This document shows, one piece after another, positions 4,463-18,918 of a DNA stretch of 64,000 nt. The notes beneath the pieces were generated by a model. It saw only the letters and a program-made list of their open reading frames with translations, was not told where the DNA came from and did no database searches. Source of the stretch: a virus; IMG/VR virus record IMGVR_UViG_3300021420_000016, positions 62,001 through 126,000 of that record, one strand, 5' to 3'. Position numbers and translations under genes: made by a program. Position 1 is the first letter of the stretch. Every line of letters starts with the position of its first letter.

Positions 4463-5983
4463 ATGCCGACCGAGATGCGACTAGCCCAGCGGGCGTTCCG
4501 GTTCGCCCTCGACCCCACCCCCCGGCAAGCCCGCATGTTCGCCTCCCATGCTGGCGGCGCCCGGTTCGCCTACAACTGGGGTAACGCGCAGATCATCGCC
4601 GCACTGGACGCCCGGCAAGCCGAGAAAGATGCAGGTGCCGAGCCGACGGTGAAGACGCCGTCCCATTTTGACCTGTGCAAGGCGTGGACGGCGTGGAAGA
4701 ACGAGCACGCCGCCGATCCCGAGCCCGCCGACGGTGAGCGGCGCACGAACACCGCCTGGGTCGCGGAGAACTTCGTCGGCACCTACCAGGCCGCGCTCCG
4801 GGACGCCGCGAAGGCGTGGTCGGACTTCTTCGCCTCCCGCTCAGGGAAGCGAAAGGGGCGCCGTCTCGGCCGACCCCGGTTCAAGAAGAAGGGCAAGTCC
4901 CGGGACTCGTTCCAGGTGCACGGCGGGACGCTGCGCATGGAGGACGCCGTGCACGTGACGCTGCCGAAGATCGGCACGATCACGGTGATGTCGGACGATT
5001 CCCTGCACCCGGCGATGCGGCGCAGCCGCGCCCGCGCCACCCACCTCGCGCCGCGGCACATGGGCAACCGGCGGCGCGCCCGGACGCTGTGGCGGGCCCT
5101 CCGGCGCGGCGGGGGCGCCCGGCTGATCCGCGGGACCGTCACGCGCGGCGCCGATGGCCTGTGGTGGCTGTCGCTGACCGCCGAAATCCCCCTGCAGGTG
5201 CGCGCGTCCCCGTCCCGCGCCCAGCAGGAGGGGGGGATGATCGGCGCCGACTTTGGGGTGCGCGAGGTCGCCACGTTCTCCAACGGGGTGACGATCCGCA
5301 ACTCGCGCCACCTGGAAGCCGCCCTGGCCGAGCTGCGGGCCGCGCAGAAGGCCCTGTCCCGGTGTCAGAAGGACTCCATGCGCCGCGAAAAGGCCAAAGC
5401 TCGCATTGGCGTAATCCACGCCGACGTGGCCCGGCTCCGCGAAACCGCCCTGCACCGGGCGACGACCGTCCTGGTCCGCCAGCACGACGTGATCGCAATG
5501 GAAGGCTGGGACGTGCAGCAGGTCATGCGCGGCGGCTCCAAGGACGTCCCCCGGCGGATCCGCCGGGACCGGAACCGGGCCCTGGCTGACACCGGGGTCG
5601 GGATGGCCCGGCAGATGCTTTCGTACAAGGGCCCGCAGATGGGTGCCATCGTGATGGTGACCGATCCGCAGGCCAAGACTGGGCGGACGTGCTCAGTGTG
5701 CAGGACGCCAAGAACCACGGCCCTGCCACCGCATCATGAGATGTTCACCAGCGATCAGTGCGGTCACGTCCTAGACCGGCGCCTCAACACGGCGCAGGCC
5801 CTCGCGGGCTGGGCCGCACAGGAGCTATCCAAGCGCGGGCCGGCGCCTGCCGGCCCGTCACGGCCTCGTGGAGGGAACGTAAGGCCTGCCGCTGACCGCA
5901 AGGTTGGCGGTGGGCGGTCCCCGGTGAAGCGAGCAGCCAGCACCCGGCTTGGCCGGGGTGAGCCTGGCACTCCCGGCGGGTAA
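4463..5983 (+). CDS. tnpB: TnpB/OrfB-family RNA-guided nuclease (IS605/IS607 type), probably impaired
   Basis: A 506-residue TnpB with the usual N-terminal helix-turn-helix (FALDPTPRQARMFASHAGGA) and basic middle. RuvC I (IGADFGVREVATFSNG) keeps its Asp, RuvC II (IAMEGWD) its Glu, and RuvC III reads CGHVLDRRLNTAQAL. The zinc ribbon has CSVC, but the third Cys is Ser (FTSDQCGH), and the usual DRD of RuvC III is DRR. The C-terminal GNVRPAADRKVGGGRSP tail is typical of IS TnpB, where the guide RNA overlaps the 3' end. A strong GGAGGTGA ribosome site precedes the ATG. No tnpA or serine transposase is adjacent, so this copy cannot move alone. Confidence 0.9.
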   Translation: MPTEMRLAQRAFRFALDPTPRQARMFASHAGGARFAYNWGNAQIIAALDARQAEKDAGAEPTVKTPSHFDLCKAWTAWKNEHAADPEPADGERRTNTAWVAENFVGTYQAALRDAAKAWSDFFASRSGKRKGRRLGRPRFKKKGKSRDSFQVHGGTLRMEDAVHVTLPKIGTITVMSDDSLHPAMRRSRARATHLAPRHMGNRRRARTLWRALRRGGGARLIRGTVTRGADGLWWLSLTAEIPLQVRASPSRAQQEGGMIGADFGVREVATFSNGVTIRNSRHLEAALAELRAAQKALSRCQKDSMRREKAKARIGVIHADVARLRETALHRATTVLVRQHDVIAMEGWDVQQVMRGGSKDVPRRIRRDRNRALADTGVGMARQMLSYKGPQMGAIVMVTDPQAKTGRTCSVCRTPRTTALPPHHEMFTSDQCGHVLDRRLNTAQALAGWAAQELSKRGPAPAGPSRPRGGNVRPAADRKVGGGRSPVKRAASTRLGRGEPGTPGG

Positions 5984-6017: not shown

Positions 6018-6064
6018 GCCTAACTCAATAGCGGAATCGCTTACAAACGTACAGGTCAAGAAGT
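6018..6064 (+). promoter_or_regulatory. Candidate CRISPR leader
   Basis: A stretch clearly richer in A/T than its surroundings (AACTCAATAG, TTACAAACGTACA) lies directly before the first repeat. The degenerate repeats are at the opposite end, which places the leader on this side and transcription on the + strand. Confidence 0.45.
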
Positions 6065-6520
6065 GTCCGGTCCGCGAGCGCGGGGGCGACGGGTCTTCAG
6101 CGGGAAGGTGCAGCTCTGCGAGCAGGTCCGGTCCGCGAGCGCGGGGGCGACGGGTGTGGGTACTCTGCGCGGGTTCAGCACAGGTTGTCCGGTTCGCGAG
6201 CGCGGGGGCGACGGGATTACGGTGCGATGGAAGCCGAAACCTTCAACGTCCGGTCCGCGAGCGCGGGGGCGACGGGTGCCCTCTCGCGACAGAGGTCCTC
6301 AGCACAGCGCGTCCGGTCCGCGAGCGCGGGGGCGACGGGGGAGTGCACCCGGAATGGCCCGCGCCAAGCGCGTCCGGTCCGCGAGCGCGGGGGCGACGGG
6401 GCGCCGAACTGCGAATTCGGTAGGGGCGTGTGGTCCGGTCCGCGAGCACGGGGGGGGCGACGGTGCCTCAGTCCAGCGCCGCCGCCGATGAAGCGGGCGG
6501 TCCGGTCCGCGGGCGCGGGG
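6065..6520 (+). CRISPR. Orphan type I-E-like CRISPR array, about seven repeats plus a degenerate terminal one
   Basis: The 29-bp repeat starts GTCCGGTCCGCGAGC and ends GGGGGCGACGGG. Repeats begin at 6065, 6126, 6187, 6248, 6311, 6372, 6433 and 6500. The period is 61 bp with 32-bp spacers, except spacers of 34 and about 36 bp. The repeat holds a CCGC-GAGC-GCGG hairpin in the register of type I-E repeats. Repeat 3 has one change, repeat 7 a G-run insertion, and repeat 8 is broken after GCGGGGG. No complete cas gene is in the window; only a cas1 fragment follows. Confidence 0.93.
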
Positions 6521-6571
6521 GATCCGGAACTTCTTGCCGATCCGGAACTTCATGTGGTTGGGTTGGTAGCC

Positions 6572-6901
6572 ATGCGCGGTGCGGAGCCGACCAAGCCGAT
6601 TGAATTAGCGCGGGTGGCCGACCAGCTCACCTTTCTCTACGTCGAGCACGCCCGGGTGGACCGCGACGTCAATGCCGTGACCGTTCAGCAGGTCTCCGGG
6701 ATCGCTCATGTTCCGGTGGCCACCCTCGCTGCGTTACTACTGGGCCCGGGAACCCGGATCACCCACGCCGCGATCACGCTGCTTGCCGGAAGCGGATGTA
6801 GCGTGCTGTGGGCCGGCGAACAAGGCGTGCGCCTTTATGCGGGTGCGGCTCGGCGTCGTCAAGGGCGGCGGGTCGGCGCTGATGGTGATCGCCGACCATG
6901 A
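6572..6901 (+). pseudogene. cas1: Truncated cas1 (type I-E), N-terminal fragment
   Basis: The first 91 codons match the N-terminal beta domain of type I-E Cas1: ADQLTFLYVEHARVDRDVNA, then HVPVATLAALLLGPGTRITH, then GEQGVRLYA. Identity ends at about 6844, after which the frame reads Arg-rich sequence to a stop at 6901. The catalytic alpha domain, with its Glu/His/Asp metal site, is absent. It lies 50 bp past the trailer end of the CRISPR array. It is a relic of a deleted adaptation module, and another sequence is fused at the breakpoint. Confidence 0.85.
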
Positions 6902-8626: not shown

Positions 8627-10315
8627 TTACGCGGCCCGTTCGGCCGATGGCAACAGCCACGGCCAGGTCGCGTCGTGTGAGGCCTCCAGAATGGGGATCA
8701 GGCGGAAGGCGTTGTCGGTAAGCCCGCCCATGGTGTGCCGGTTCCCGCCACCCGAAGGCAGTCCCCCAGTCTTGTACCCGCCGAAGTTCCACAGGTACAC
8801 CGGCACGTGCCGCGGGATCAGGTCATCAATCCTGGTCGACGGCATGCCGCCCGCGAAGTGACAGTTCGACGGCAGGTACCCCGGGGAGGTCTGCTCGTCG
8901 GTGACGATCACCACCCGGTCGTGGTAACCGGCGCGGAAATGCTGCCGCACCGCCGTGGGGATGTCGGTCCCCCACTGCCCCGTGGTGAGCCGCTCCACCA
9001 GCTTGAGCACCGACTCGCCCTGGGTGAACCGCACGGCGGCGTTCACGCCGCGGCCGGTGTCCTGGCCCCAGAACTCCACCAGGTCGGCGTGGGCGGCGCG
9101 CAGGGCGATGGCTGCGGCGAACACGGCCGCCCCGTCGGCCCAGGACATGTCGGAGTGCTCGGACATGTTCTGGTGCCACATCGACGGCGACCGGTCCACC
9201 AGCACCAGCGTGCGGCCCGCCAGCGCGGGCACGTTCGCCAGCGAGTGGCCGAGGCCCTGCTCCAGCGGCCAGCCCCACCGCAGCGACGGGGCGTGCCGGT
9301 AGGCGGCGAGGAACCGGAACGGGAACAGCCGCGACCTGGCCACCCGGTCGGGGTCAGCCAGTTTCGCCGCGACCTCCGCCGCCACCGAGTCCGGGACGCC
9401 GGCCTGGTCGAAGTTCCGCAGGTTCTTCGCCAGCGCGCCCAGGCCCATCATCGGGATCGCCGCAGTCCACGCCTCGCGGGTCATCGGGCCCTGCAGCCAC
9501 CCGGCGAGGGCCTCCCACGTCATCCCCGCATCACGCAGATCCTGAGTTGCCTCCGGCCGGTTCAGCCACGCACGCCGTGCACCCTCCGGCATGGCCATCA
9601 GGGCGTGCCGGCGGCGGATCGTCGCCAGCACCTCCGGGACCGGGTTGCCCCGGTCGTGGCGCCGCTCGATCGCATACCGGTAAAGTGCTTCGCGCCACGT
9701 GCCGTACGCCCTGCGGTGATACCGCGGGTTGACGAGTTCGATAACGTCACCGAATCGCACTGCCGCCTCGTCGGTGTCGTACTTCAGCAGGGCGAACTCG
9801 TTGTAGAGGCGGTGGATCCCGTCGGCGAGGCCCCGCTTGAGCCCGATCGGCATCTTCCGGCCGTAGTTCGCCAGCCAGTAGGCGGTCAGCTCCCCCGGCT
9901 CGTCGGCGCGCTGCAGCACCGAGTCCACCACCGGCCGCGGGAACGTGGCGACGCCCACTTCCCGGCCCGTGCCGGCCTCGTCGCGGCGCGCCCAGGTGAA
10001 CTCCGCCGCGCCGATCACCGGCGCCAGGCGCAGGTTCCCGTCGCCGCGCAGCCACCCGAGCAGGCCGGCCGTCCATGCGGGGTCGGCGGCCGCCATCTCG
10101 CGGACGAGGTGACGGTAGCGCTTCACCCGGGCGTCGCGGCCCTCGTGGAACGCCCTCTCCCCCGGCAGGTTGCACGCCGCCAGGAGGAACAACTCGGACT
10201 GACCCTCGCGGGCATACCCGGGGGCACCCAAGGCGGTACGGCCGGACGGCCCCGGGCCGCTCACGACCGGGCTGGACGCGGCGGCACGGACAGGACCGCG
10301 GTTGAACTTGCTCAT
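8627..10315 (-). CDS. rsr: Ro60/Rsr ortholog (TROVE domain plus vWA domain)
   Basis: A 562-residue RNA-binding ring protein. The N-terminal two thirds is the helical TROVE domain (LFLLAACNLPGERAFHEGRD, WLANYGRKMPIGLKRGLADG). The C-terminal third is a von Willebrand A domain with an intact metal site: DRSPSM, the Thr of GTDIPT, and VTDEQTS. Bacterial Ro60 proteins bind Y RNAs and structured RNA, sometimes with an exoribonuclease, in RNA quality control and tRNA/rRNA maturation. The start MSKFNRG is chosen over an upstream ATG at 10384 that would enter the Y-RNA region; an AAAGGGGG lies upstream. It lies downstream of, and in the same direction as, the Y-RNA candidates and the tRNA array. Confidence 0.93.
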   Translation of the reverse strand: MSKFNRGPVRAAASSPVVSGPGPSGRTALGAPGYAREGQSELFLLAACNLPGERAFHEGRDARVKRYRHLVREMAAADPAWTAGLLGWLRGDGNLRLAPVIGAAEFTWARRDEAGTGREVGVATFPRPVVDSVLQRADEPGELTAYWLANYGRKMPIGLKRGLADGIHRLYNEFALLKYDTDEAAVRFGDVIELVNPRYHRRAYGTWREALYRYAIERRHDRGNPVPEVLATIRRRHALMAMPEGARRAWLNRPEATQDLRDAGMTWEALAGWLQGPMTREAWTAAIPMMGLGALAKNLRNFDQAGVPDSVAAEVAAKLADPDRVARSRLFPFRFLAAYRHAPSLRWGWPLEQGLGHSLANVPALAGRTLVLVDRSPSMWHQNMSEHSDMSWADGAAVFAAAIALRAAHADLVEFWGQDTGRGVNAAVRFTQGESVLKLVERLTTGQWGTDIPTAVRQHFRAGYHDRVVIVTDEQTSPGYLPSNCHFAGGMPSTRIDDLIPRHVPVYLWNFGGYKTGGLPSGGGNRHTMGGLTDNAFRLIPILEASHDATWPWLLPSAERAA

Positions 10316-10370: not shown

Positions 10371-10513
10371 GACATGCCCGACAACGAATCGGCCCACGGG
10401 ACATAAGCGCTCTGCCAGTTGAGCTACGCCCCCAAAGTGGAGGCGACAGGACTTGAACCTGTAACCACTCGATCCACAATCGAAGTACCGCGAACCTGCA
10501 CTTCGGGCATGCC
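10371..10513 (-). ncRNA. Y-RNA candidate 1 with permuted tRNA-His-like module
   Basis: The 5' arm GGCATGCCCGAAGTGCAGG pairs with the 3' arm ending GTCGGGCATGTC (11 bp, one G-U). A bulged second helix GG..CGCGGTAC / GTCCCGTG..CC follows. Inside the loop lies a cloverleaf in permuted order: anticodon arm with loop TTGTGGA (GTG), T arm (ACAGG-TTCAAGT-CCTGT), 3' acceptor strand CGCCTCC-A, a CTTT linker, 5' acceptor strand GGGGGCG, then a D arm. This is the architecture of bacterial Y RNAs, a Ro60-binding stem plus a tRNA-like module. It lies directly upstream of rsr. Confidence 0.75.
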
Positions 10514-10533
10514 TTCATGAAGTTGTACCCCCC

Positions 10534-10670
10534 CCCGACAACGAATCGGCGACGGTAACCGGGGCCGGATTCGAACCGGCGGCCTCCGCCCTTCCGGGCG
10601 GCGCTCTACCAACTGAGCTACCTCGCAAAATGGGTTGGCTGCGAGAAGTAACCGTTGCCTGCACTTCGGG
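10534..10670 (-). ncRNA. Y-RNA candidate 2 with tRNA-like module
   Basis: The same arms occur as in unit 1 (CCCGAAGTGCAGG; CCGATTCGTTGTCGGG), with CAACGG/CCGTCG continuing the stem. The insert has an acceptor-like hairpin (CTCGC/GCGAG closed by a 14-nt loop), a D arm, a stem CCGCCC-GGAA-GGGCGG in the anticodon position capped by a GNRA tetraloop, and a normal T arm (GCCGG-TTCGAAT-CCGGC). The acceptor strand is not matched after the T arm, so this is not an ordinary tRNA. The permutation point differs from unit 1. Confidence 0.72.
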
Positions 10671-10699
10671 GAGAAGTGCTTTATTTAGTTTATGTCCTT

Positions 10700-10804
10700 C
10701 CCGACAACGGATCGGCGGCGGCTGCGCGGGATTCGAACCCGCAACCTTCAGCTACTGTGACTGATTTCGATCCAATTCGAAGTAGCCGTCTCCTGCACTT
10801 CGGG
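10700..10804 (-). ncRNA. Y-RNA candidate 3, short form
   Basis: The same 5' arm CCCGAAGTGCAGG and 3' arm CCGATCCGTTGTCGGG flank a shorter insert. The stem continues CGGCT/AGCCG. Inside are a CTAC...GTAG arm enclosing TTCGA-ATTGGA-TCGAA, and a canonical T arm (GCGGG-TTCGAAT-CCCGC). No D or acceptor arm is visible. Confidence 0.65.
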
Positions 10805-10889
10805 AAAGTATTCCCAGAGCCTAGCGAACCGGCAATGCGTGGCGCATCCCGTTTTCGCGTGACCCTGATCACAGCGCGAGCACCCTTTG

Positions 10890-10961
10890 AGTCGGCGGCG
10901 GGAATTGAACCCGCGTGCGCAGCTTTGCAGGCTGCTACCTCTGCCACTCGGCCACGCCGAC
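10890..10961 (-). tRNA. tRNA-Cys(GCA)
   Basis: Acceptor GTCGGCG/CGCCGAC, discriminator T, anticodon arm GCAGC-CTGCAAA-GCTGC, T loop TTCAATT. First tRNA before the Y RNAs in transcription-distal order. Confidence 0.93.
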
Positions 10962-10965
10962 ACGG

Positions 10966-11039
10966 TGAGCGAGGCGGGATTCGAACCCGCAGCCTTCTTC
11001 TTAGGAGGAAGTTGCTCCATCCCGTTGAGCTACCCGCTC
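10966..11039 (-). tRNA. tRNA-Arg(CCT)
   Basis: Acceptor GAGCGGG/CTCGCTC, anticodon loop CTCCTAA, T arm GCGGG-TTCGAAT-CCCGC. The anticodon stem has an A-A mismatch at 27-43. Confidence 0.9.
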
Positions 11040-11110
11040 GCGGGAACGCCTGGCGACCGCTATGCGTGATCCTTTACCCCCACCGTTTGAAGCTGGGTCC
11101 AGGCGTTCGG

Positions 11111-11182
11111 CGTCCCCGGCGTGACTCGAACACGCGCGCACGGCTCCGGAGGCCACAGCTCTATCCACTGAGCTACGGGGAC
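11111..11182 (-). tRNA. tRNA-Arg(CCG)
   Basis: Acceptor GTCCCCG/CGGGGAC, anticodon arm GTGGC-CTCCGGA-GCCGT, T arm CGTG-TTCGAGT-CACG. Confidence 0.92.
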
Positions 11183-11186
11183 TTGG

Positions 11187-11268
11187 TGGCAGGTCCAGGG
11201 TTCGAACCTGGGTAGGCTGAGCCGGCGGTTTTACAGACCGCTCCCTTTGGCCGCTCGGGCAACCTGCC
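11187..11268 (-). tRNA. tRNA-Tyr(GTA)
   Basis: Class II tRNA with a long variable arm; acceptor GGCAGGT/ACCTGCC, anticodon arm GCGGT-CTGTAAA-ACCGC. Confidence 0.94.
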
Positions 11269-11271
11269 TTG

Positions 11272-11347
11272 GGGAGCCCGGCCGGATTTGAACCGGCGAC
11301 GACACGGACCACAACCGTGTGTTCTGCCTGGCTGAACTACAGGCTCC
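11272..11347 (-). tRNA. tRNA-His(GTG)
   Basis: Acceptor GGAGCCT/GGGCTCC, discriminator C as expected for His, anticodon arm CACGG-TTGTGGT-CCGTG. Confidence 0.93.
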
Positions 11348-11351
11348 ATGG

Positions 11352-11423
11352 TGGGTGATGATGGGATCGAACCATCGGCCTCTGTCGTGTGAAGGCAGCG
11401 CTCTGCCACTGAGCTAAACACCC
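11352..11423 (-). tRNA. tRNA-Val(CAC)
   Basis: Acceptor GGGTGTT/ATCACCC with one T-T mismatch; anticodon arm CTGCC-TTCACAC-GACAG with a C-A mismatch at 30-40; T loop TTCGATC. Confidence 0.85.
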
Positions 11424-11511
11424 CTGCCAGGTCTTGATTTAAGTTCCGGGAATGCTTATTGTTTCCTTGCTACTAAAACCCTTAGCAAGTAGCACGGAAA
11501 GGGACACCTCA

Positions 11512-11655
11512 ATGGGCAGGAACAAAATCGTTGCAACTTGCGCCGCAATCTTTTTCGCGGCCGGGATGGCCGCCCCGGTTATCGCCGCAGCCACACCCGC
11601 CGTGCACGCCGTGGCAGACGGCAGTGGCGGCCCCGACATGTACCACCACAGCTGA
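11512..11655 (+). CDS. Small secreted peptide, 47 aa
   Basis: Encoded opposite the tRNA array. GGAAAGGG lies 8 bases before the ATG. The N-terminus is a signal peptide (GRNK, then IVATCAAIFFAAGMAAPVIA) with Ala-x-Ala sites, leaving a mature peptide of about 14-20 residues ending DGSGGPDMYHHS. A strong hairpin follows at once, so it is a self-contained unit. Function unknown; size and export suggest a signalling or surface peptide. Confidence 0.65.
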   Translation: MGRNKIVATCAAIFFAAGMAAPVIAAATPAVHAVADGSGGPDMYHHS

Positions 11656-11669
11656 CCGTCCCCCAGGCC

Positions 11670-11704
11670 GTCTGCGGTCCCGAGCCCCCGGCGGGGCCGC
11701 AGAC
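11670..11704 (+). terminator. Terminator hairpin after the secreted peptide gene
   Basis: Stem GTCTGCGG / CCGCAGAC, GC-rich, 14 bp after the stop codon of the peptide gene. Confidence 0.65.
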
Positions 11705-11716
11705 CCCTAAAATAAG

Positions 11717-11789
11717 TGCGCTCGGAGGGACTCGAACCCCCAACAAACTGCTCCGTAGGCAGTTGCTCTATCCGTTGAGCTACGGGCGC
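11717..11789 (-). tRNA. tRNA-Arg(ACG)
   Basis: Anticodon arm ACTGC-CTACGGA-GCAGT; acceptor GCGCCCG/CGAGCGC with one C-A mismatch. Confidence 0.9.
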
Positions 11790-11800
11790 ATGGTATCGCG

Positions 11801-11873
11801 TGGGCGTACCTGGGATCGAACCAGGGATCCTCTGCCGTGTCGAGACAGCGCTCTGCCGCTGAGCTACACGCCC
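11801..11873 (-). tRNA. tRNA-Val(GAC)
   Basis: Acceptor GGGCGTG/TACGCCC, anticodon arm CTGTC-TCGACAC-GGCAG. Position 33 is C. The stop codon of the upstream LAGLIDADG-like gene lies inside its 5' end. Confidence 0.9.
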
Positions 11874-12382
11874 ACCGTTACTTCCAGGCCAATCTCGGCG
11901 GCCTGCCCAGCGATCTTCTCCGGCAGTTCCCAGCCGAGCCGGGCCAGCCGCTGCACTGCCTGCCGGGCACCATTCCCGGCCCGGCCCGCTAGGTTCACGT
12001 TCTCCAGTGCCTCGTTCATCATGTCCTCCATCCCCCGGTCGGTCACCATGAACGGAATCACGTTGAACAGCACGACCGCCGCCGCAGCGCCGGTGAGAGT
12101 CCACCGGCCGGTGGATGGCTGGACGCCGATCTCGCAATGGATATGCGCCTCGCCGCAATGCTCGGCGCAGCCCCGCTTGTCCCACTCCTTGCCCGGACGG
12201 GGAGGCCGCGGCTCCGCGTTGCTGTCGGTGAGCCGGCACAACTCCCTGATCACGCTCAGGTAAGAAGAGTCGACCCGCAGCACCAGTTGCGGCGTCGCCC
12301 GGGTGAGGTTGTCCTTCCGGTGGATGCGGCCCTGCATGTCCAAGATGGCCGCCATCCAGGCCAGCTTCTCGGCAGGGACCAT
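11864..12382 (-). CDS. LAGLIDADG-like homing endonuclease
   Basis: A 172-residue protein whose N-terminus LAWMAAILDMQGRI has the spacing of a LAGLIDADG helix (usually LAGILDGEGSI), followed by LVLRVDSSYLSVIRELCRL as in single-motif enzymes. The usual acidic residue of the motif is Asp in ILDMQG. A possible second helix is VLFNVIPFMV. It sits between tRNA-Asp and tRNA-Val, and its stop codon lies in the tRNA-Val 5' end. The start MVPAEKL is chosen because an upstream start would read through tRNA-Asp. Confidence 0.6.
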   Translation of the reverse strand: MVPAEKLAWMAAILDMQGRIHRKDNLTRATPQLVLRVDSSYLSVIRELCRLTDSNAEPRPPRPGKEWDKRGCAEHCGEAHIHCEIGVQPSTGRWTLTGAAAAVVLFNVIPFMVTDRGMEDMMNEALENVNLAGRAGNGARQAVQRLARLGWELPEKIAGQAAEIGLEVTVGV

Positions 12383-12408
12383 AAACCTCAGCCTAGCGCC
12401 GTGATACG

Positions 12409-12483
12409 CGGGACAGGCGGGATTCGAACCCGCGGCCTCCACCTTGACAGGGTGGCGAGCACTCCTGACTGCTCCACAGTCCC
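12409..12483 (-). tRNA. tRNA-Asp(GTC)
   Basis: Acceptor GGGACTG/CTGTCCC, discriminator G, anticodon arm CCACC-CTGTCAA-GGTGG. Confidence 0.92.
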
Positions 12484-12600
12484 ATGATTCCGGTCGCGGC
12501 CCCGCAGGCTATCGCGCCTCACCTGCGGTCAGCGGACGGCGAACCCGCCTATGTTTGCCCACCGGAACTGCACCAGCCAGATGCAGGTGTTGGAAAACGG

Positions 12601-12673
12601 CTCCCGAGGAAGGGCTCGAACCTTCAACCTGCCGGTTAACAGCCGGACGCTCTGCCGATTGAGCTACCCGGGA
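12601..12673 (-). tRNA. tRNA-Asn(GTT)
   Basis: Acceptor TCCCGGG/CTCGGGA, anticodon loop CTGTTAA, discriminator G. Confidence 0.93.
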
Positions 12674-12814
12674 ATGAGAAAGAAGCCCCGCCTACACGGA
12701 GCGCCCCGACGGCACTCCCGCCCTTATGCTGCCGTCGCAGCCCCATGGGCACTTGGTCCGCGGCCCGCGCGCCCTGCCTTCGGGTCAAGCCCGTACATCC
12801 TCAGCGGAACTTCG

Positions 12815-12888
12815 TAGCGGGGGGCGGATTTGAACCGCCGTCCTCTGGGTTATGAGCCCAGCGAGCTACCGAACTGCTCCACCCCGCG
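12815..12888 (-). tRNA. Initiator tRNA-fMet(CAT)
   Basis: Initiator features: an unpaired first base (C1 against U72), three G-C pairs at the base of the anticodon loop (CTGGG-CTCATAA-CCCAG) and a GGAGCAG D region. Confidence 0.93.
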
Positions 12889-12979
12889 TCGCATGTGAGA
12901 TTTCCCGGCCACCTGGCCAACTCAGGTACCCACAACGGCCTCTCTACGGCTGACACTGATCACGCTACCACATTCGTGG

Positions 12980-13052
12980 TGGCTCCAGTCAGATTCGAAC
13001 TGACGCCGTCTCCTTGAAAGGGAGGTGACCTGGGCCGCTAGTCGATGGAGTC
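12980..13052 (-). tRNA. tRNA-Glu(TTC)
   Basis: Anticodon stem CTCC-CTTTCAA-GGAG; acceptor GACTCCA/TGGAGCC with an A-C mismatch at the second pair. Confidence 0.9.
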
Positions 13053-13053
13053 G

Positions 13054-13126
13054 TATCCCGGGAGGGATTCGAACCCCCGCCGCCACCTTGAGAGAGTGGC
13101 ATCCTAGGCCGCTAGACGACCGGGAC
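13054..13126 (-). tRNA. tRNA-Glu(CTC)
   Basis: Anticodon arm CCACT-CTCTCAA-GGTGG; acceptor GTCCCGG/CCGGGAT. One base separates it from tRNA-Glu(TTC). Confidence 0.92.
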
Positions 13127-13138
13127 ATGTACTTTACG

Positions 13139-13211
13139 TGCGCCGCCGCGGACTCGAACCGCGAGCCGTCTCCTTAGAGGGGAGCCGCTCTATCCATTGA
13201 GCTAGCGGCGC
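13139..13211 (-). tRNA. tRNA-Arg(TCT)
   Basis: Acceptor GCGCCGC/GCGGCGC, anticodon loop CCTCTAA, T arm CGCGG-TTCGAGT-CCGCG. Confidence 0.92.
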
Positions 13212-13380
13212 TGGCCGCGTCTCCGATTTCCCGGCGGACGGCTTGCTTCTCGCGTGCACGCTGAGCGCGCCGGCCGATCTCCTTCATACCGGGCTTGTAA
13301 CCCGGGTCGTGACCGGGGCAGCACCAATTCTGGTCGTGGGCACTGCGGGCCCGGCCGAGCATCCTTGCCATGGGGCGCAT
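13174..13380 (-). CDS. Small basic protein reading into tRNA-Arg
   Basis: The 68-codon frame contains NWCCPGHDPGYKPGMKEIGR and a basic helix RAQRAREKQAVRREIG, a texture seen in small mobile-element proteins. It follows the HNH gene in the same direction. The last 13 codons and the stop lie within tRNA-Arg(TCT), so the original 3' end may have been lost. An ATG nine bases in (MARMLG) is an alternative start. Confidence 0.4.
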   Translation of the reverse strand: MRPMARMLGRARSAHDQNWCCPGHDPGYKPGMKEIGRRAQRAREKQAVRREIGDAASAASSMDRAAPL

Positions 13381-13394
13381 CCTCCGGTTAGGGG

Positions 13395-13895
13395 CTATGC
13401 CGCTTCGCGCAGAGTGCGCATTCCGCGAGTGCCAGGCGTCTCACCCCGGCGAACCCGGCCATCGTATTTGGCTTGGCGGCATAGACCGCAGCGGCATCCG
13501 CGACCGTATTCCGCTTGAGAACCGTGGCCCTTTCGCTGAAGTTGCGGCCACGGGCGTTCGACACGCTGCTCGGCTAGGTCAGTGACCGTTTTCCGGTGAT
13601 GATGCGCGCCACATAGAACTTGGCACCCTTCAAGCTCCTCAAGGAACTTCACTTCTGCGATCGACCATAGTCTCGCTAGGTCGATCTCTTTGGCGCGCCA
13701 ATCAATGTGGTCGATCTCCAGGTCGGCGGTGCCGCCGCACTCGGCACAGGCGCCGCCTAGCAGCGCGATGGCTCGATCCCGTCGTTCGTGGTAGCGCCGG
13801 AGCATGTAATCGCGCATGTAGCCGTTGTAGCAGTCGCGACATCTCTTGCCGTTGGCATACTCCCTGACGGGCCTGCCGCACTGGTTGCAACACAT
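13395..13895 (-). CDS. HNH endonuclease in the tRNA array
   Basis: A 166-residue protein. The N-terminal Cys pairs (CCNQCG, CRDC) form a zinc finger. The HNH core is CAECGGTADLEIDHIDWRAK with CGAHHHRK closing the metal site. The tail has further cysteines (GRGCRCGLC). This pattern is typical of free-standing homing HNH proteins of phages and plasmids. It occupies the gap between tRNA-Lys(TTT) and tRNA-Arg(TCT) and probably targets a tRNA or neighbouring sequence; the target is not known. Confidence 0.82.
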   Translation of the reverse strand: MCCNQCGRPVREYANGKRCRDCYNGYMRDYMLRRYHERRDRAIALLGGACAECGGTADLEIDHIDWRAKEIDLARLWSIAEVKFLEELEGCQVLCGAHHHRKTVTDLAEQRVERPWPQLQRKGHGSQAEYGRGCRCGLCRQAKYDGRVRRGETPGTRGMRTLREAA

Positions 13896-13912
13896 GTTCG
13901 AATTATATGCGG

Positions 13913-13986
13913 TGCCCCGCCTCGGATTCGAACCGAGAACCCGCGGATTAAAAGTCCGCTGCTCTAAGCCGTTGAGCTAGCAGGGC
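13913..13986 (-). tRNA. tRNA-Lys(TTT)
   Basis: Acceptor GCCCTGC/GCGGGGC, anticodon arm GCGGA-CTTTTAA-TCCGC. Confidence 0.94.
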
Positions 13987-14045
13987 GTGGGGCTGGGTAT
14001 TCGTACGACCTGTTTCTCGCGCATCGTTTCCTCCTTTCCGGGGGG

Positions 14046-14120
14046 TAGGCCGGGCGGGGGTCGAACCCGCACATCTTCCGCTTATAAGGCGGCTGCCGTC
14101 ACCCTGTTGGCCACCGGCCT
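14046..14120 (-). tRNA. tRNA-Ile(TAT)
   Basis: Acceptor AGGCCGG/CCGGCCT, anticodon stem CCGC-CTTATAA-GCGG, T arm GCGGG-TTCGACC-CCCGC. UAU reads AUA, which most bacteria decode with a lysidine-modified CAU tRNA. Confidence 0.88.
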
Positions 14121-14126
14121 CCTGAG

Positions 14127-14198
14127 TAGCGAGAGGGGATTCTGCCACCCCGGCCTCTCCGTTATGGGCGGAGCGCTCTCCTTCTGAGCTATCCCGCT
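14127..14198 (-). tRNA. tRNA-Met/Ile2-like (CAT) with abnormal T arm
   Basis: Acceptor AGCGGGA/TCTCGCT, D arm GCTC/GAGC, anticodon arm CTCCG-CCCATAA-CGGAG with C33. The T loop reads TGGCAGAAT instead of TTCRANY, leaving only a 4-bp T stem, so it may not fold or be modified normally. Confidence 0.7.
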
Positions 14199-14216
14199 GG
14201 GTCCCCGTGGGGGTGG

Positions 14217-14289
14217 TGGGCCTAGGTGCTTTTGGGACACCGACCTCCCGGTTATCAGCCGGACGCTCTTACCTCTGAGCTACAGGCCC
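14217..14289 (-). tRNA. tRNA-Ile(GAT) with abnormal T loop
   Basis: Acceptor GGGCCTG/TAGGCCC, anticodon loop CTGATAA. The T stem GGTGT/GCACC is kept but the loop is CCCAAAA rather than the TTCRANY consensus. Confidence 0.75.
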
Positions 14290-14293
14290 TTGG

Positions 14294-14382
14294 AGGAGGG
14301 TGCGAGATTCGAACTCGCGAGACGAGTCCCCCCGTCTAGCCGTTTTCGAGACGGTGCCGTAGGCCACTCCGGTCAACCCTCC
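14294..14382 (-). tRNA. tRNA-Ser(CGA)
   Basis: Class II with a long variable arm; acceptor GGAGGGT/ACCCTCC, anticodon loop CTCGAAA. A CCA is encoded just past the discriminator. Confidence 0.9.
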
Positions 14383-14387
14383 ACAAG

Positions 14388-14476
14388 CGGAGTGACAAGG
14401 ATTCGAACCTTGGAGGGGCTTGCGCCCCAACGGCGTTAGCAGCGCCGCGCCATAGGCCAGACTAGGCGACCACCCC
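14388..14476 (-). tRNA. tRNA-Ser(GCT)
   Basis: Class II with variable arm GGGGC-GCAA-GCCCC; anticodon stem GGCG-CTGCTAA-CGCC, discriminator G. Confidence 0.92.
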
Positions 14477-14554
14477 ATTGTGCGGTGGGCGGGGACAGGC
14501 GGACCCGCTGGTACGCGCAGACCAGCATGGCCGTGATCTCCCCGCCTCACTGCG

Positions 14555-14630
14555 TAGCGCTCGTCGGATTCGAACCGACACTGTCGCGGACCTGAACCGC
14601 GCGCCTCCTACCATGTTGGGCTAGAGCGCC
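14555..14630 (-). tRNA. tRNA-Leu(CAG), short variable loop
   Basis: Acceptor GGCGCTC/GAGCGCT, anticodon arm CGCGG-TTCAGGT-CCGCG, T arm GTCGG-TTCGAAT-CCGAC. The variable loop is only about 5 nt, whereas bacterial tRNA-Leu normally has a long arm. Confidence 0.8.
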
Positions 14631-14735
14631 TGGCCAGGGATCAGGCCGGTGCCGTCTGGCTCACGCTGCCTTCCCGGCACCGCCGGCTCCGCAGTCAGCG
14701 TGATGGGGATAACCGTGTGGCGCCTGATCCCTTAG

Positions 14736-14808
14736 AGCGGACGGCCGGGATCGAACCGGCGACTTCAACCTTGGCAAGGTTGCGCTCTGCCAACTGAGCC
14801 ACGCCCGC
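14736..14808 (-). tRNA. tRNA-Gly(GCC)
   Basis: Acceptor GCGGGCG/CGTCCGC, anticodon arm CAACC-TTGCCAA-GGTTG, discriminator T. Confidence 0.94.
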
Positions 14809-14818
14809 ATGTATTTCG

Positions 14819-14890
14819 AGCGGAAGACGGGGATCGAACCCGCAACCCCGACCTTGGGAAGGTCGTGCTCTGCCATTGAGCCACTTCCGC
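14819..14890 (-). tRNA. tRNA-Gly(CCC)
   Basis: Acceptor GCGGAAG/CTTCCGC, anticodon arm CGACC-TTCCCAA-GGTCG. Confidence 0.94.
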
Positions 14891-14894
14891 ATGG

Positions 14895-14967
14895 AGCCCG
14901 ACCGGGGAATTGAACCCCGCCTACGGCCTTACCAAGGCCGGGTGCTTACCGCTATCACTAGCCGGGC
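14895..14967 (-). tRNA. tRNA-Thr(GGT)
   Basis: Acceptor GCCCGGC/GTCGGGC, anticodon arm CGGCC-TTGGTAA-GGCCG. Confidence 0.94.
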
Positions 14968-14971
14968 GAAG

Positions 14972-15042
14972 CTGGGGGAGCTGGGGTCGAACCAACGTTC
15001 CAGGGACCAAAGCCCCGTGTCCTGCCTTTAGACGATCCCCCA
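14972..15042 (-). tRNA. tRNA-Gln(TTG)
   Basis: Acceptor TGGGGGA/TCCCCCA, a tRNA-Gln hallmark; anticodon loop CTTTGGT, discriminator G. Confidence 0.92.
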
Positions 15043-15046
15043 TTGG

Positions 15047-15121
15047 AGCCGGCCATCGGGCTTGAACCGATCACCTGCCGCTTACAGGGCGGCTGCTCTG
15101 CCTGCGATGAGCTAGGCCGGC
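15047..15121 (-). tRNA. tRNA-Thr(TGT)
   Basis: Acceptor GCCGGCC/GGCCGGC, anticodon arm GCCGC-CCTGTAA-GCGGC with C33; a CCA is encoded after the discriminator. Confidence 0.9.
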
Positions 15122-15187
15122 GTGATCCTGGCAGGCACCGCAGGCGACCTTTGGCGCCGCAGTGAGGCCTGCCCTGCCAAGGAATCG

Positions 15188-15262
15188 TGTGCTCGGAGGG
15201 ACTTGAACCCTCAACATCCGGCACCTCGGGCCGACCTCTCTGCCACATTGGAGTACGAGCAC
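15188..15262 (-). tRNA. tRNA-Leu(GAG), short variable loop
   Basis: Acceptor GTGCTCG/CGAGCAC, anticodon arm TCGGC-CCGAGGT-GCCGG with C33, T arm GAGGG-TTCAAGT-CCCTC. It lacks the long variable arm expected for Leu. Confidence 0.8.
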
Positions 15263-15335
15263 TCAGTCAGTTCTTAGGCCAGCCGTATGGTGGGTATGAC
15301 TCATCCCAACGATACCGATCGCAGGGAGCGCCCCC

Positions 15336-15572
15336 GTGGATGAGCCCAATCTCACTCTCCCCGAAGCCCAGGAGCAACTACCGGCGATCTGCCAGCGGTT
15401 CGCTGCCGACCCAGGAACCCGGGATGCCGTTGTAGTGACAGACGCCGATGGCCCAGTGGCCGTGATCATCCCCTGGCGGAGGTACCGGGCCTGGGCCGGC
15501 CTCGGGGGGGAGACCCTGATGCCCGTTCACCAAAACGGCCGCCTGATAGCGGTTGTCCGGGACTGCGGCTGA
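15336..15572 (+). CDS. Phd/YefM-like antitoxin
   Basis: A 78-residue protein on the strand opposite the tRNAs. Helix LPEAQEQLPAICQRF is followed by DAVVVTDADGPVAVIIPWRR, the pattern of Phd/YefM antitoxins (helix, then VVIT..G.PVAVLV). GTG start with AGGGAG eight bases upstream. No toxin gene is adjacent; the C-terminal tail HQNGRLIAVVRDCG is short. It could be an orphan antitoxin or an anti-addiction gene. Confidence 0.6.
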   Translation: MDEPNLTLPEAQEQLPAICQRFAADPGTRDAVVVTDADGPVAVIIPWRRYRAWAGLGGETLMPVHQNGRLIAVVRDCG

Positions 15573-15577
15573 CTGGG

Positions 15578-15650
15578 AGCCCGATGCCGGGGTCGAACCG
15601 GCGACCTCCGCGGTACGAAGGCGGCGCTCTACCGACTGAGCTAACCGGGC
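15578..15650 (-). tRNA. tRNA-Thr(CGT)
   Basis: Acceptor GCCCGGT/ATCGGGC; anticodon loop TTCGTAC, with a C-C mismatch at 31-39; T arm GCCGG-TTCGACC-CCGGC. Confidence 0.87.
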
Positions 15651-15802
15651 GTGGCTGCCCCGCGTACGCCGGTTCGGCGGGGCGCACCAGGGCGGGAGAA
15701 TCCGGGGCCGTGCGATCAGCCGCCCAAGATCGCCTCGATCTTCCATGTTCCCGGTGATCAACTCCGGGTGGGCCCCTGCGCCAGTGCCGGCCAGTTACCT
15801 TC

Positions 15803-16477
15803 TTAGGGATTCCTGGCCGCTGATGCAACCGGCGCTGCTCCCGGAGCTGGGGTCGAACCAACTACGGGACTTACCGCTTCCGGGGCTGGACTCGAACCAG
15901 CGAGGACAGGGGCCAGAACCCTGCTGGGGACGCCGCCGCCCCACCCGGAATCAAGTCGGCCCGAACGGATAGCCGTACGGATCCGATGACAATTAGCGCA
16001 AACTATGTCACACTTCGCGATCTCAGCAAGGATTCTGCTCCATGACCAGCGGGTAAGCACGGCACTTATGTTGCCCAGCTTGTCATCCCCATCCCTGTGG
16101 TCGTAATCCATAACACAAGGGGGGAACCGGCCACCGCAATCAGCGCACGGGACGTCTTTCAATGCGTCGAGTCGCTGCCGGTTCGCCTCGTATCGTTGCC
16201 GGTTGCGGTCCAGATATACCTGCTTGTTGTCGTTGTACCACCGTTGCTTCGCCGCCCGCTGTGCTTCTTTGTTACGGCCGGCACCGGTCCCTTTCTTCCA
16301 CCGGACCCCGAGAAAATGTGAAGTATCCAGGCCCAGCTCTGCGGCTACCGCCCTGATTCTGTGGTATGAACTACCTCCGTCAGCCTTAAGTCCAAGCGCT
16401 CGGGCTACCTGGCCCCAAGTCGTGGATTGAGTGATGGCATCAGCTAGATCGCCGTCGGACCATGACCTGGTTCTCAT
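15803..16477 (-). CDS. HNH endonuclease inserted in a tRNA-Gln gene
   Basis: The N-terminal part is a helix-turn-helix domain (LADAITQSTTWGQVARALGL). The middle has CADCGGRFPPCVMDYDHRDG and CDIVCANCHRIRT, the HNH metal site. After NCHRIRT the frame no longer looks like protein and reads through the intact tRNA-Gln(CTG) to a stop at 15803, so the authentic end is probably near 15960. It lies between the 5' and 3' halves of another tRNA-Gln(CTG), the arrangement expected of a homing cassette that cut that gene. Confidence 0.8.
   Translation of the reverse strand: MRTRSWSDGDLADAITQSTTWGQVARALGLKADGGSSYHRIRAVAAELGLDTSHFLGVRWKKGTGAGRNKEAQRAAKQRWYNDNKQVYLDRNRQRYEANRQRLDALKDVPCADCGGRFPPCVMDYDHRDGDDKLGNISAVLTRWSWSRILAEIAKCDIVCANCHRIRTAIRSGRLDSGWGGGVPSRVLAPVLAGSSPAPEAVSPVVGSTPAPGAAPVASAARNP
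15838..15868 (-). pseudogene. 3' half of a split tRNA-Gln(CTG)
   Basis: It contains a T arm (GTTGG-TTCGACC-CCAGC) and the 3' acceptor strand TCCGGGA with discriminator G. No anticodon or D arm precedes it. The acceptor strand is the exact complement of the 5' half at 16555-16561. Confidence 0.75.
15877..15950 (-). tRNA. tRNA-Gln(CTG), intact copy
   Basis: Acceptor TTCCGGG/CCCGGAA, anticodon arm CAGGG-TTCTGGC-CCCTG, T arm GCTGG-TTCGAGT-CCAGC, discriminator G. It lies inside the insertion that splits the other tRNA-Gln(CTG), so it can supply the lost function. Confidence 0.9.
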
Positions 16478-16520
16478 GCCTGCCAGTATACGGCAAGGTG
16501 TAGGGCTCTAGTCGCTTCGT

Positions 16521-16561
16521 CTGATCCAGAGTCAGGTGTCCTGCCATTGGACGATCCGGGA
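16521..16561 (-). pseudogene. 5' half of a split tRNA-Gln(CTG)
   Basis: Acceptor strand TCCCGGA, D arm GTCC/GGAC and anticodon arm CTGA-CTCTGGA-TCAG are present. The sequence then leaves tRNA-like structure. The matching 3' half lies about 650 bp downstream at 15838-15868. Confidence 0.78.
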
Positions 16562-16565
16562 TTAG

Positions 16566-16647
16566 TGCGGGACGAGGGATTTGAACCCTCACGCCCTCTC
16601 GGGCACACGGACTTGAGCCGTGCGTGTCTGCGTTTCACCAGCCCCGC
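16566..16647 (-). tRNA. tRNA-Leu(CAA)
   Basis: Class II with variable arm TGCCC-GAGA-GGGCG; acceptor GCGGGGC/GTCCCGC, anticodon loop CTCAAGT. Confidence 0.94.
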
Positions 16648-16653
16648 TGGCCT

Positions 16654-17442
16654 TCAAAACGCCTTCCGCATTTCCTCGATCAGGGCCAGCGATTGCGGCG
16701 CGTTCAGGGCTATGCTTTGCAGCCAATCCGCTTGCGCGCGGAACCGGTCCAGGTCTGCGGTGTGGTCCTGGTACCTGTCTTCTCTCTCGGAGAAGACCAT
16801 CGGGGGCAGTTCGCCGGCGAAATCCAGGATCGTGAAGTTCGGCGCCGGGGAGGAGATCAGCGCCGCGCGGAACGGGACTACCCGCACGATGGCGCCTTCG
16901 CCGGCAAGGTTCAGGATGTGCCCGAGCTGGTCGGCCATGATGTCGGCGCCGGGGTGGCGCTGCAGGACCGCCTCATCCAGGAGGAACGTTGTGGGGATCT
17001 TCCCCACCAGTACCTGCCGGGCTTCACGCACCTGCGGGTACGGCCGGCCGGCGGCCTGGTCGTAGTTTGCGGTGCGCAGCAGCGCGGGGATTACGTCGCG
17101 GGCGAGGCAGACGAGGGACTCGGCGTTTTGCTCCAGGCTGAGGTACAGGACCGACCGGTCGTTGCTGATCGGCTCTATCCTCCACGGGTCTTTCTCCCGG
17201 CCGCGTCTCACGGCGGCAAGGAGCTCCGCCGCGGTGGCCTGGTCGGCGCCGTAGACGAGGCACATGGAGCGGACTGTGCGCCCGTCGGCGAGCCGGTCGC
17301 CGGTTTCGGTGCGGCTGACCGTGGCCATGGAGCACAGCAGTTCGGCTGCGGCCTGCTCGATCGTCATGCCCGCTGCGGTGCGCAGTTCGCGCAGGCGGGC
17401 GGCGAGTTTCATCTGGGCTACGGCGGGGCTGTCACTTGCCAT
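16654..17442 (-). CDS. XRE-family regulator with DUF5753-like C-terminus
   Basis: About 262 residues. N-terminal helix-turn-helix (LRELRTAAGMTIEQAAAELL, SMATVSRTETGDR). The C-terminal domain has the actinomycete DUF5753 pattern (IPALLRTANYDQAAGR, HILNLAGEGAIVRVVPFRA, VFSEREDRYQ). The start MASDSP is chosen from three close in-frame ATGs. It is embedded between tRNA-Leu(CAA) and tRNA-Lys(CTT). These regulators usually partner with a small DUF397-type protein, which is not seen here. Confidence 0.88.
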   Translation of the reverse strand: MASDSPAVAQMKLAARLRELRTAAGMTIEQAAAELLCSMATVSRTETGDRLADGRTVRSMCLVYGADQATAAELLAAVRRGREKDPWRIEPISNDRSVLYLSLEQNAESLVCLARDVIPALLRTANYDQAAGRPYPQVREARQVLVGKIPTTFLLDEAVLQRHPGADIMADQLGHILNLAGEGAIVRVVPFRAALISSPAPNFTILDFAGELPPMVFSEREDRYQDHTADLDRFRAQADWLQSIALNAPQSLALIEEMRKAF

Positions 17443-17487
17443 GTGGCACATATACCCTGCACCGGGCATTTTGCACGTAACCTATCG

Positions 17488-17559
17488 TGCGCCGCCAGGG
17501 GATCGAACCCCGGACCCGCCGATTAAGAGTCGGCTGCTCTACCACTGAGCTAGCAGCGC
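17488..17559 (-). tRNA. tRNA-Lys(CTT)
   Basis: Acceptor GCGCTGC/GCGGCGC, anticodon arm GCCGA-CTCTTAA-TCGGC. Confidence 0.94.
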
Positions 17560-17563
17560 CTGG

Positions 17564-17634
17564 AGCGGGTGAAGGGGATCGAACCCTCATGACCAGCTTG
17601 GAGGGCTGGGGCTCTGCCATTGAGCTACGCCCGC
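17564..17634 (-). tRNA. tRNA-Gly(TCC)
   Basis: Acceptor GCGGGCG/CACCCGC with one C-A mismatch; anticodon arm CCAGC-CCTCCAA-GCTGG with C33; CCA encoded. Confidence 0.9.
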
Positions 17635-17646
17635 ATTGACTTTTGG

Positions 17647-17720
17647 TGGCCACTCTCCGAGTCGAACGGAGGCCCTCTCACTTTTCAGGCGAGCGCTCAT
17701 ACCAACTGAGCTAAGCGGCC
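17647..17720 (-). tRNA. tRNA-Phe(GAA)
   Basis: Acceptor GGCCGCT/AGTGGCC, anticodon arm CTCGC-CTGAAAA-GTGAG. Confidence 0.93.
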
Positions 17721-17724
17721 ATAG

Positions 17725-17796
17725 TCGGGATGGTCCGAACCGAACGGACGCCCTTCTGCTCCCAAAGCAGACGCTCTTCCACTGAGCTACACCCCG
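17725..17796 (-). tRNA. tRNA-Pro(TGG)
   Basis: Acceptor CGGGGTG/CATCCCG, anticodon arm TCTGC-TTTGGGA-GCAGA. Confidence 0.93.
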
Positions 17797-17801
17797 AATC
17801 G

Positions 17802-17876
17802 TCGGGACAGACCGATTTGAACGGCCGGCCTCCGGCTCCCCGAGCCGGCGCTCTAACCAAGCTGAGCTATGCCCCG
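17802..17876 (-). tRNA. tRNA-Pro(GGG)
   Basis: Acceptor CGGGGCA/TGTCCCG, anticodon arm CCGGC-TCGGGGA-GCCGG with C33. Confidence 0.91.
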
Positions 17877-17878
17877 GT

Positions 17879-18062
17879 TACGCCACGTGTTTCCAGGTGC
17901 GCCCACACCGAATATCGCTGATCGTGGCCTTGTGAACTCCCAGCAGTTTGGCAAGGGCAATCCCCCGACGCATGAGCCGTTCGCGGCCAGCCACTTGGCT
18001 CTCCTGGCAGCGACCCACTCCCGCATGTACTTTCGCTGCCGCTCAGGATCGGCATAAGGCAT
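17879..18062 (-). pseudogene. HNH homing endonuclease remnant with internal deletion
   Basis: The frame opens MPYADPERQRKYMREWVAAR and RAKWLAANGSC, the usual start of small HNH proteins. The cysteine/HNH core is missing. In a second frame the sequence resumes with the C-terminal DNA-binding module RRGIALAKLLGVHKATISDI and RCGRTWKHVA, then TAA next to tRNA-Pro(GGG). A deletion with a frame change joins the two ends. Confidence 0.6.
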
Positions 18063-18107
18063 GCGAACGGTATATCGCAGTTAGCCCTTTGACCTGTACT
18101 CTTGTGG

Positions 18108-18182
18108 TCGGGATGGGGTGATTCGAACACCCGGCCTCCTCGTCCCGAACGAGGCGCGCTGACCAAGCTGCGCCACATCCCG
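18108..18182 (-). tRNA. tRNA-Pro(CGG)
   Basis: Acceptor CGGGATG/CATCCCG, anticodon arm CCTCG-TTCGGGA-CGAGG. Confidence 0.94.
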
Positions 18183-18414
18183 TTTGCCGGTTCCCTCCCA
18201 GGGCGTGCCGCCAGTGCAGGCAGAGAACGTTCCGTCCCCTTGCCGGAAAGAGGGACCCAGGCCCCTCGCGCGTCCGGGCGGGGAGACTTCCCCGGGGGCG
18301 GACTGTGATGCGCATTGCACGGCGGTCCCTGGTTGCCGGATCAGCCCTCCGCAGTTTGCTGTGTGGTACGTCACTTCTGCGAGCGATATCCGGCCCGGCT
18401 AGCGGGGACCGTAG

Positions 18415-18487
18415 TGGAGTTACAGGGACTCGAACCCTGGGCCTCCGCGTTGCGGGCGCGGCGCTCTCCCGGCTGAGCTATAACCCC
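18415..18487 (-). tRNA. tRNA-Ala(CGC)
   Basis: Acceptor GGGGTTA/TAACTCC, anticodon arm CCGCG-CCCGCAA-CGCGG with C33. The 230 bp between this and tRNA-Pro(CGG) shows no convincing gene. Confidence 0.91.
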
Positions 18488-18585
18488 TCAAGCGTGGTGG
18501 CCTCCGGTTGTTTGTCCCTTATTTAGCAGGGAGAGCCACGTATTCCCCGGAGGTTGCCCCCGGCGCCAGTCCGGGACCCCCCTTG

Positions 18586-18658
18586 TGGAGCTACGCGGAT
18601 TCGAACCGCGGACCCTCTCGATGCCATCGAGATGCTCTGCCAACTGAGCTATAACCCC
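18586..18658 (-). tRNA. tRNA-Ala(GGC)
   Basis: Acceptor GGGGTTA/TAGCTCC, anticodon arm TCTCG-ATGGCAT-CGAGA. Confidence 0.93.
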
Positions 18659-18845
18659 ATCTGGGCGGTTAGAACTGCCGCTCCCCCACTGGCCCAGAGT
18701 GGGCCGGCGGGATCATCGACGGGCAGAGACCACCCACGCGGGACTTATGGCCGCCCGCCTTTTCGTTTGGTGCTCACGCTATGCAAGTTTCAACCACCGG
18801 GCGGGTTCACCAGCCTTACCTCTCGGTCGCGCTGGTGCCGCTTCG

Positions 18846-18918
18846 CCCGGACGGAGGGACTCGAACCCTCAACCAACGGTTTTGGAGACCGTCACTCTTC
18901 CAATTGAGCTACGTCCGA
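18846..18918 (-). tRNA. tRNA-Trp(CCA)
   Basis: Acceptor TCGGACG/CGTCCGG, anticodon arm ACGGT-CTCCAAA-ACCGT, discriminator G. First tRNA of the array in the direction of transcription. Confidence 0.94.

Follow-up and report, generated by a model that had tools for sequence, protein, structure and literature searches.

Three tandem units directly upstream of a Ro60 gene are, in our judgment, probably Y RNAs that partner the adjacent Ro60 protein. Two of them carry a full, circularly permuted tRNA cloverleaf inside the Y RNA stem. They lie on the minus strand of the window (the whole 64,000-nt stretch analyzed here, taken from a 154-kb record that IMG/VR classes as viral) in the order unit 3 (10696-10808), unit 2 (10527-10677), and unit 1 (10371-10513). 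They are flanked by an upstream array of 37 tRNA genes (10889-18918, minus strand) and by the Ro60 gene (8627-10315, minus strand), whose ATG follows the end of unit 1 by 55 nt. It is this synteny, together with the resemblance to known Y RNAs, that points to Ro60 binding.

The protein encoded next to the units matches the Pfam TROVE family PF05731 (E = 7e-9; 35.7 bits, above the curated cutoff of 23), phrog_850 (RNA-binding protein; E = 2e-36), and the TROVE chains 9l5y/9kop in the PDB (E = 7.5e-23). By tblastn it hits a phage "Ro-like RNA binding protein" (E = 9e-117), and it is 36 to 45% identical to the proteins of that name in Streptomyces, Gordonia, and Arthrobacter phages. The initial annotation of this DNA had placed tandem Y RNA candidates beside a Ro60 gene; the TROVE gene is confirmed, and the same arrays occur upstream of Ro60 in most relatives. 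The units may be carried on a plasmid or a fragment, since no phrog_2 terminase was found in the window and genes for ParA, DnaB, FtsK, and an integrase are present in it.

Exact copies of a 5' arm (CCCGAAGTGCAGG) and a 3' arm (CCGATYCGTTGTCGGG) are found in all three units on the minus strand. As initially described, the arms pair through CCCGA/TCGGG, but the outer helix is longer than was then stated (11 bp in unit 1, 12 bp in unit 2, and 9 bp in unit 3). In each unit, this outer helix (H1) is separated from an inner helix (H2) by an internal loop that is asymmetric and conserved; the motif UACUUC and the module then follow. The minimum-energy folds of units 1 and 2 contain the proposed helices, with fold z-scores of -3.59 for unit 1 (0 of 200 shuffles as good), -1.93 for unit 2, and -2.02 for unit 3. 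Folding of the individual units had been suggested as a check, and units 1 and 2 do fold as proposed. The long basal stem joining the 5' and 3' ends and the conserved internal loop are those of a Y RNA; the free acceptor ends with CCA of a functional tRNA are absent from units 1 and 2, where the acceptor is a closed hairpin.

When the whole window was scanned for such stems, the three units were the top three matches (scores of 39.5, 38.5, and 34.0), and no score reached 34 in five shuffled 64-kb sequences. Because the 3' motif list of the scan was partly taken from the window, covariance models provide the cleaner test. At the module entry, UACUUC is nearly invariant across all module types (e.g., window positions 10482-10487), with the qualification that the scan that found the units used a loose form of this motif. 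Its UUC begins the first helix of whichever arm leads the module.

To place the units in a family, loci around Ro60 relatives were drawn from viral contigs, phages, plasmids, and actinomycete genomes, and two pattern scans of viral contigs supplied extra loci. A search of the relatives with the exact arms failed because the arms diverge among them. The stem-based scan detected up to eight tandem units with the shared anatomy in most relative loci. We collected 350 distinct units, 208 of which made up a nonredundant, reliable set. A Ro60 gene was present in 130 of the 145 fetched loci with units, and in 121 same-strand loci the median distance from the end of the nearest unit to the Ro60 match downstream of it was 122 nt; as the loci were partly found via Ro60 or the arms, both figures describe the set and are no test of it. 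Y RNAs of this family upstream of Ro60 are widespread in actinomycetes, their phages, and plasmids.

The covariance models were built from the full-module units of 53 relatives (R1) and from 31 short units (R2). Neither includes the window sequence, and the training rows L068, L066, and L071 have window-like arms. R1 matched unit 1 over its full length (109.2 bits; E = 4.8e-24). It aligned both arms of unit 2 (34.1 bits; E = 2.7e-6) and of unit 3 (32.2 bits) and skipped the module in each, and R2 scored unit 3 at 37.8 bits (E = 6.1e-6). The covariance-model search called for earlier thus recovers all three units with models made from relatives only. R1 also gives 33 to 37 bits to some adjacent tRNA pairs without Y arms (the T arm of one plus the D arm of the next), including one pair at 14774-14861 that, at 37 bits, outscores units 2 and 3; for this reason, only matches including the Y arms were counted. 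R1 matches were present in 11 of 60 actinomycete genomes.

Helices H1 and H2 and the T, acceptor, and D helices all covary, and 0 of 500 shuffles were as good in paired cells and covariation score. In the alignments behind the two models, 88.9% and 90.8% of cells were paired, compared with 42 to 50% when the partner was slid by one column, and two-sided changes occurred in 13 of 17 and 30 of 37 pairs. The pairing of H1 in these figures is inflated because H1 was used in finding the units (H2 was used weakly), and that of the T, acceptor, and D helices is inflated in alignment A1 because its 53 rows were chosen by ARAGORN call. Covariation also bears on whether the units might be decayed genes of the tRNA array that lie by chance between repeats. 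They do stand at the end of the array and have recognizable tRNA arms. However, distant relatives show covariation in both arms and modules, with compensatory changes in the helices, and many relatives have units beside Ro60 and no tRNA array, so we give this reading almost no credence.

Unit 1, identified by R1, folding, and ARAGORN, holds a cloverleaf cut between the D and anticodon arms, an arrangement that we call type 1. On the minus strand, the module runs from the anticodon arm (UUCGA-UUGUGGA-UCGAG; 10468-10484) through the T arm (10446-10462, also placed by R1 model positions) and a closed 7-bp acceptor hairpin without CCA (10427-10445) to the D arm (10409-10424). The cut and the intact His anticodon loop (UUGUGGA) had been recognized initially; the acceptor loop, then given as CTTT, is really the 5-nt ACUUU. 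When the module ends are joined, ARAGORN calls a tRNA-His(gtg). We extended this end-joining test to the family by doubling each module, running ARAGORN, and requiring the call to span the junction. A full cloverleaf was called in 99 of 146 long units, a count that includes type-2 units such as unit 2 (see below), and in 0 of 146 dinucleotide-shuffled modules; 90 of the 99 had a three-base anticodon. The majority of long units contain a whole cloverleaf with its anticodon arm, in circularly permuted form.

The anticodon loops were characterized in the 65 units that have a stem of at least 4 bp and a 7-nt loop starting at UACUUC. These loops are tRNA-like, with a pyrimidine at position 32 in 62, U33 in 50, A or G at position 37 in 53, and A38 in 53 of the 65. 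A34 is rare (3/65). In an unselected test of the type-1 anticodon stem, the three inner pairs formed in 34 of 122 units (re-dealt mean, 8.2; maximum, 17), which amounts to a subset only. Type-1 anticodons comprise about 40 different triplets. An isotype link between anticodon and tRNA body was tried and rejected across the family, the mean percentile for same-anticodon tRNAs being 0.539. Such variable, unlinked anticodons fit selection for tRNA shape rather than for decoding.

The initial annotation had suggested that modules were recently shuffled from neighboring tRNAs. This is not supported, as the modules are not specially similar to the 37 tRNAs of the window. With the anticodon masked, the best match of unit 1 among 239 tRNAs was a tRNA-His (34.0 versus 30.5), a weak preference. 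Two different permutation points do exist, as had been noticed, but they are not private to this element, since both classes recur in many elements.

The second permutation point is that of unit 2, which was identified by its R1-aligned arms, its fold, and alignment with covariation. The break in its cloverleaf falls between T arm and acceptor 3' strand, which makes it type 2, a rare variant in the family. The fold bears out the arrangement initially read from the sequence, with the acceptor hairpin ahead of the D arm, a GGAA loop at the anticodon position, and then the T arm. The acceptor hairpin (UCUCGCA-GCCA-ACCCAUUU-UGCGAGG; 10621-10646) has an encoded GCCA inside its loop (10636-10639) and is followed on the minus strand by the D arm (10603-10618), the anticodon-position stem with its tetraloop (10586-10601), and the T arm (10564-10580); the last three are placed by the type-2 alignment, covariation, and the fold.

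Eight members, unit 2 among them and all on viral contigs, share the order acceptor hairpin, D arm, anticodon arm, and T arm. In their alignment, 95.5% of cells are paired (0 of 500 shuffles as good), and two-sided changes are seen in all helices but the invariant D stem, including all five pairs of the anticodon stem. RNAalifold independently gives the same structure. The anticodon loop is degenerate in this class, at 4 to 12 nt. A third model (R3) scored seven type-2 relatives above 120 bits and all other units in the fetched loci at 67 bits or less. A strict type-2 pattern had 0 matches in 395 actinomycete genomes.

N-CCA directly follows the acceptor 3' strand in 7 of 7 type-2 members (the window, L106, L173, L202, L203, L206, and L207, all found without CCA in the search; L198 was left out because CCA was part of its search pattern), compared with 4 of 79 type-1 units. 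Shared descent may lie behind part of this constancy. Among the ordinary tRNA genes of the window, 10 of 37 encode CCA. Further Y-RNA-like matches lie near the type-2 unit in four type-2 contigs (L198:3975-4288, L202, L206, and L207), and in L202 and L207 the type-2 unit is downstream, not upstream, of Ro60.

An encoded CCA and complete cloverleaves raise the question of whether the modules are permuted tRNA genes, from which working tRNAs would be made by cleaving the acceptor hairpin and removing the Y stem like an intron. The cloverleaves are indeed complete after end joining, in type 2 a leader-like stretch comes after the encoded N-CCA, and, as in circularly permuted tRNA genes, the 3' part precedes the 5' part. 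Yet type-1 acceptor loops are short (mostly 3 to 10 nt) and seldom followed by CCA, type-2 anticodon loops are eroded, anticodons are unlinked to tRNA bodies, and ordinary tRNA genes, 37 of them, are already present on the element. Furthermore, the permuted tRNA here is embedded in a Ro60-type stem and is unlikely to be released, and the known permuted tRNA genes have been described in archaea and algae (PMC3218864, PMC3978253). We regard the production of working tRNAs as very unlikely. A more limited processing of type-2 RNAs such as unit 2 is conceivable, though still a long shot: RNase P could cut at the acceptor loop and 3' trimming could proceed to the encoded CCA, so that Ro60 would hold a Y RNA in two pieces whose CCA end is free and possibly aminoacylated. 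If so, the processed RNA would be a tRNA- or tmRNA-like adapter on the Ro60 ring.

Unit 3, identified by R2, R1, and folding, is a Y RNA with a partial module. It had been described as keeping only the T arm (10726-10742, minus strand), but the fold adds two hairpins, one of them anticodon-like (UUCGA-AUUGGA-UCGAA). Partial and missing modules are common in the family. Among the 208 nonredundant units, 97 read as complete permuted tRNAs, 26 possess a T arm but give no full call, and the units with no T arm comprise 60 short and 25 long ones; some short relatives (21/65) keep a 7-nt anticodon-like hairpin. Since some units have no tRNA module, tRNA mimicry cannot be the sole function.

The closest known RNA is YrlA (RF02553), which is likewise adjacent to Ro60 and combines a stem with a permuted T arm, acceptor hairpin, and D arm. 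The core of unit 1 aligns to positions 24 to 84 of the RF02553 model and follows this order; unit 2 is arranged differently, and unit 3 has just the T arm of these three. The Rfam model has no anticodon arm, whereas unit 1 has one, and in a relative that hairpin aligns as an 11-nt insertion. Crystallized YrlA reportedly has no free CCA end, and a stem is said to replace its anticodon arm. Against Rfam YrlA, unit 1 scored 35.6 bits, below the gathering threshold of 69 bits; units 2 and 3 had no listed match, and 0 of 42 relatives searched reached the threshold. Structure and synteny, the subthreshold score, and the anticodon arm led us to file the units as Y RNAs that are a variant of YrlA as defined by Rfam and not members of it. 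Relative to Rfam and the open papers, what is new is the full permuted cloverleaf with an anticodon arm and the type-2 class with encoded CCA.

Two other RNAs invite comparison. YrlB and other short Y RNAs also stand in tandem with a tRNA-like Y RNA beside rsr, as in the operon rsr-yrlBA-rtcBA (PMC7790460), but they lack a tRNA-like domain, whereas unit 3 keeps a T arm. Permuted two-piece tmRNA (RF04321) has a tRNA-like end in which a loop closes the acceptor, and type 2 adds an encoded CCA to this likeness; no tmRNA body was recognized in the units, however, and unit 1 scored 23.1 bits against a threshold of 47.

How the units might work is suggested by characterized Y RNAs, in which the stem tethers Rsr/Ro60 and is joined to a tRNA-like domain. 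In Deinococcus radiodurans the other end of the Y RNA binds PNPase, and the tRNA-like domain of YrlA is modified by DusA and TruB (PMC8394870). By analogy, the stem and internal loop of the units, if expressed, would dock on the Ro60 ring, and the module, resembling a tRNA, would attract or divert enzymes that bind tRNA, with PNPase, anticodon nucleases, and tRNA-modifying enzymes as candidates. One Ro60 protein would then be served by several adapters from the tandem array, unit 1 providing a full permuted tRNA, unit 2 another that includes an encoded CCA, and unit 3 a partial one.

As a special case of this explanation, the units could be decoys for anticodon nucleases or other tRNA-cleaving defense effectors, with Ro60 as their carrier. 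Their anticodon loops are varied and tRNA-like, and units are frequent on mobile elements with tRNA arrays. YrlA has already been proposed as a competitive inhibitor of an anticodon nuclease (PMC7790460), and phage TROVE proteins have been linked to RNA repair (PMC7824862). On the other hand, the same units occur in actinomycete genomes (11/60), the type-2 loops are eroded, and the nuclease tested left Salmonella YrlA uncleaved (PMC7790460). We consider a dedicated decoy role unlikely and favor the broader reading as Y RNA adapters of Ro60. A class with a full cloverleaf and free choice of anticodon, next to one that keeps CCA and loses the anticodon loop, separates the tRNA parts that matter in each. 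The family thus supplies natural variants (anticodon arm, CCA, and T/D core) for probing the binding partners of the tRNA-like half of bacterial Y RNAs.

Existing annotations are probably affected as well. Deposited "tRNA" genes beside Ro60 in phages Alone3 (Ser; L016:4774-4847), Frankenweenie (Pro; L019:4664-4754), and VanLee (Arg; L021:4617-4688) overlap full-length R1 matches and are probably parts of Y RNAs; more generally, some of the tRNAs annotated next to Ro60 in deposited phage genomes are probably Y RNA modules. BLAST searches with single units returned mostly tRNAs and were uninformative.

We also made several minor observations. One 106-kb viral contig has eight tandem units with differing modules upstream of a single Ro60 (L008:3969-4971). 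An ACAACTT linker just upstream of unit 1 (10520-10526, minus strand) is conserved 5' of many relatives' units; 60 of 256 units have it in the 40 nt that precede them, compared with 1 of 256 in a control stretch, and it is possibly a processing or promoter signal. Elsewhere in the window, a TnpB-family RNA-guided nuclease gene (4463-5983; nearest type, IS607) precedes a CRISPR-like array (6060-6537) of eight copies of about 29 nt (GTCCGGTCCGCGAGCGCGGGGGCGACGGG), spaced mostly at 61 nt, and this array is followed by a truncated type I-E Cas1 at about 6600-6860.
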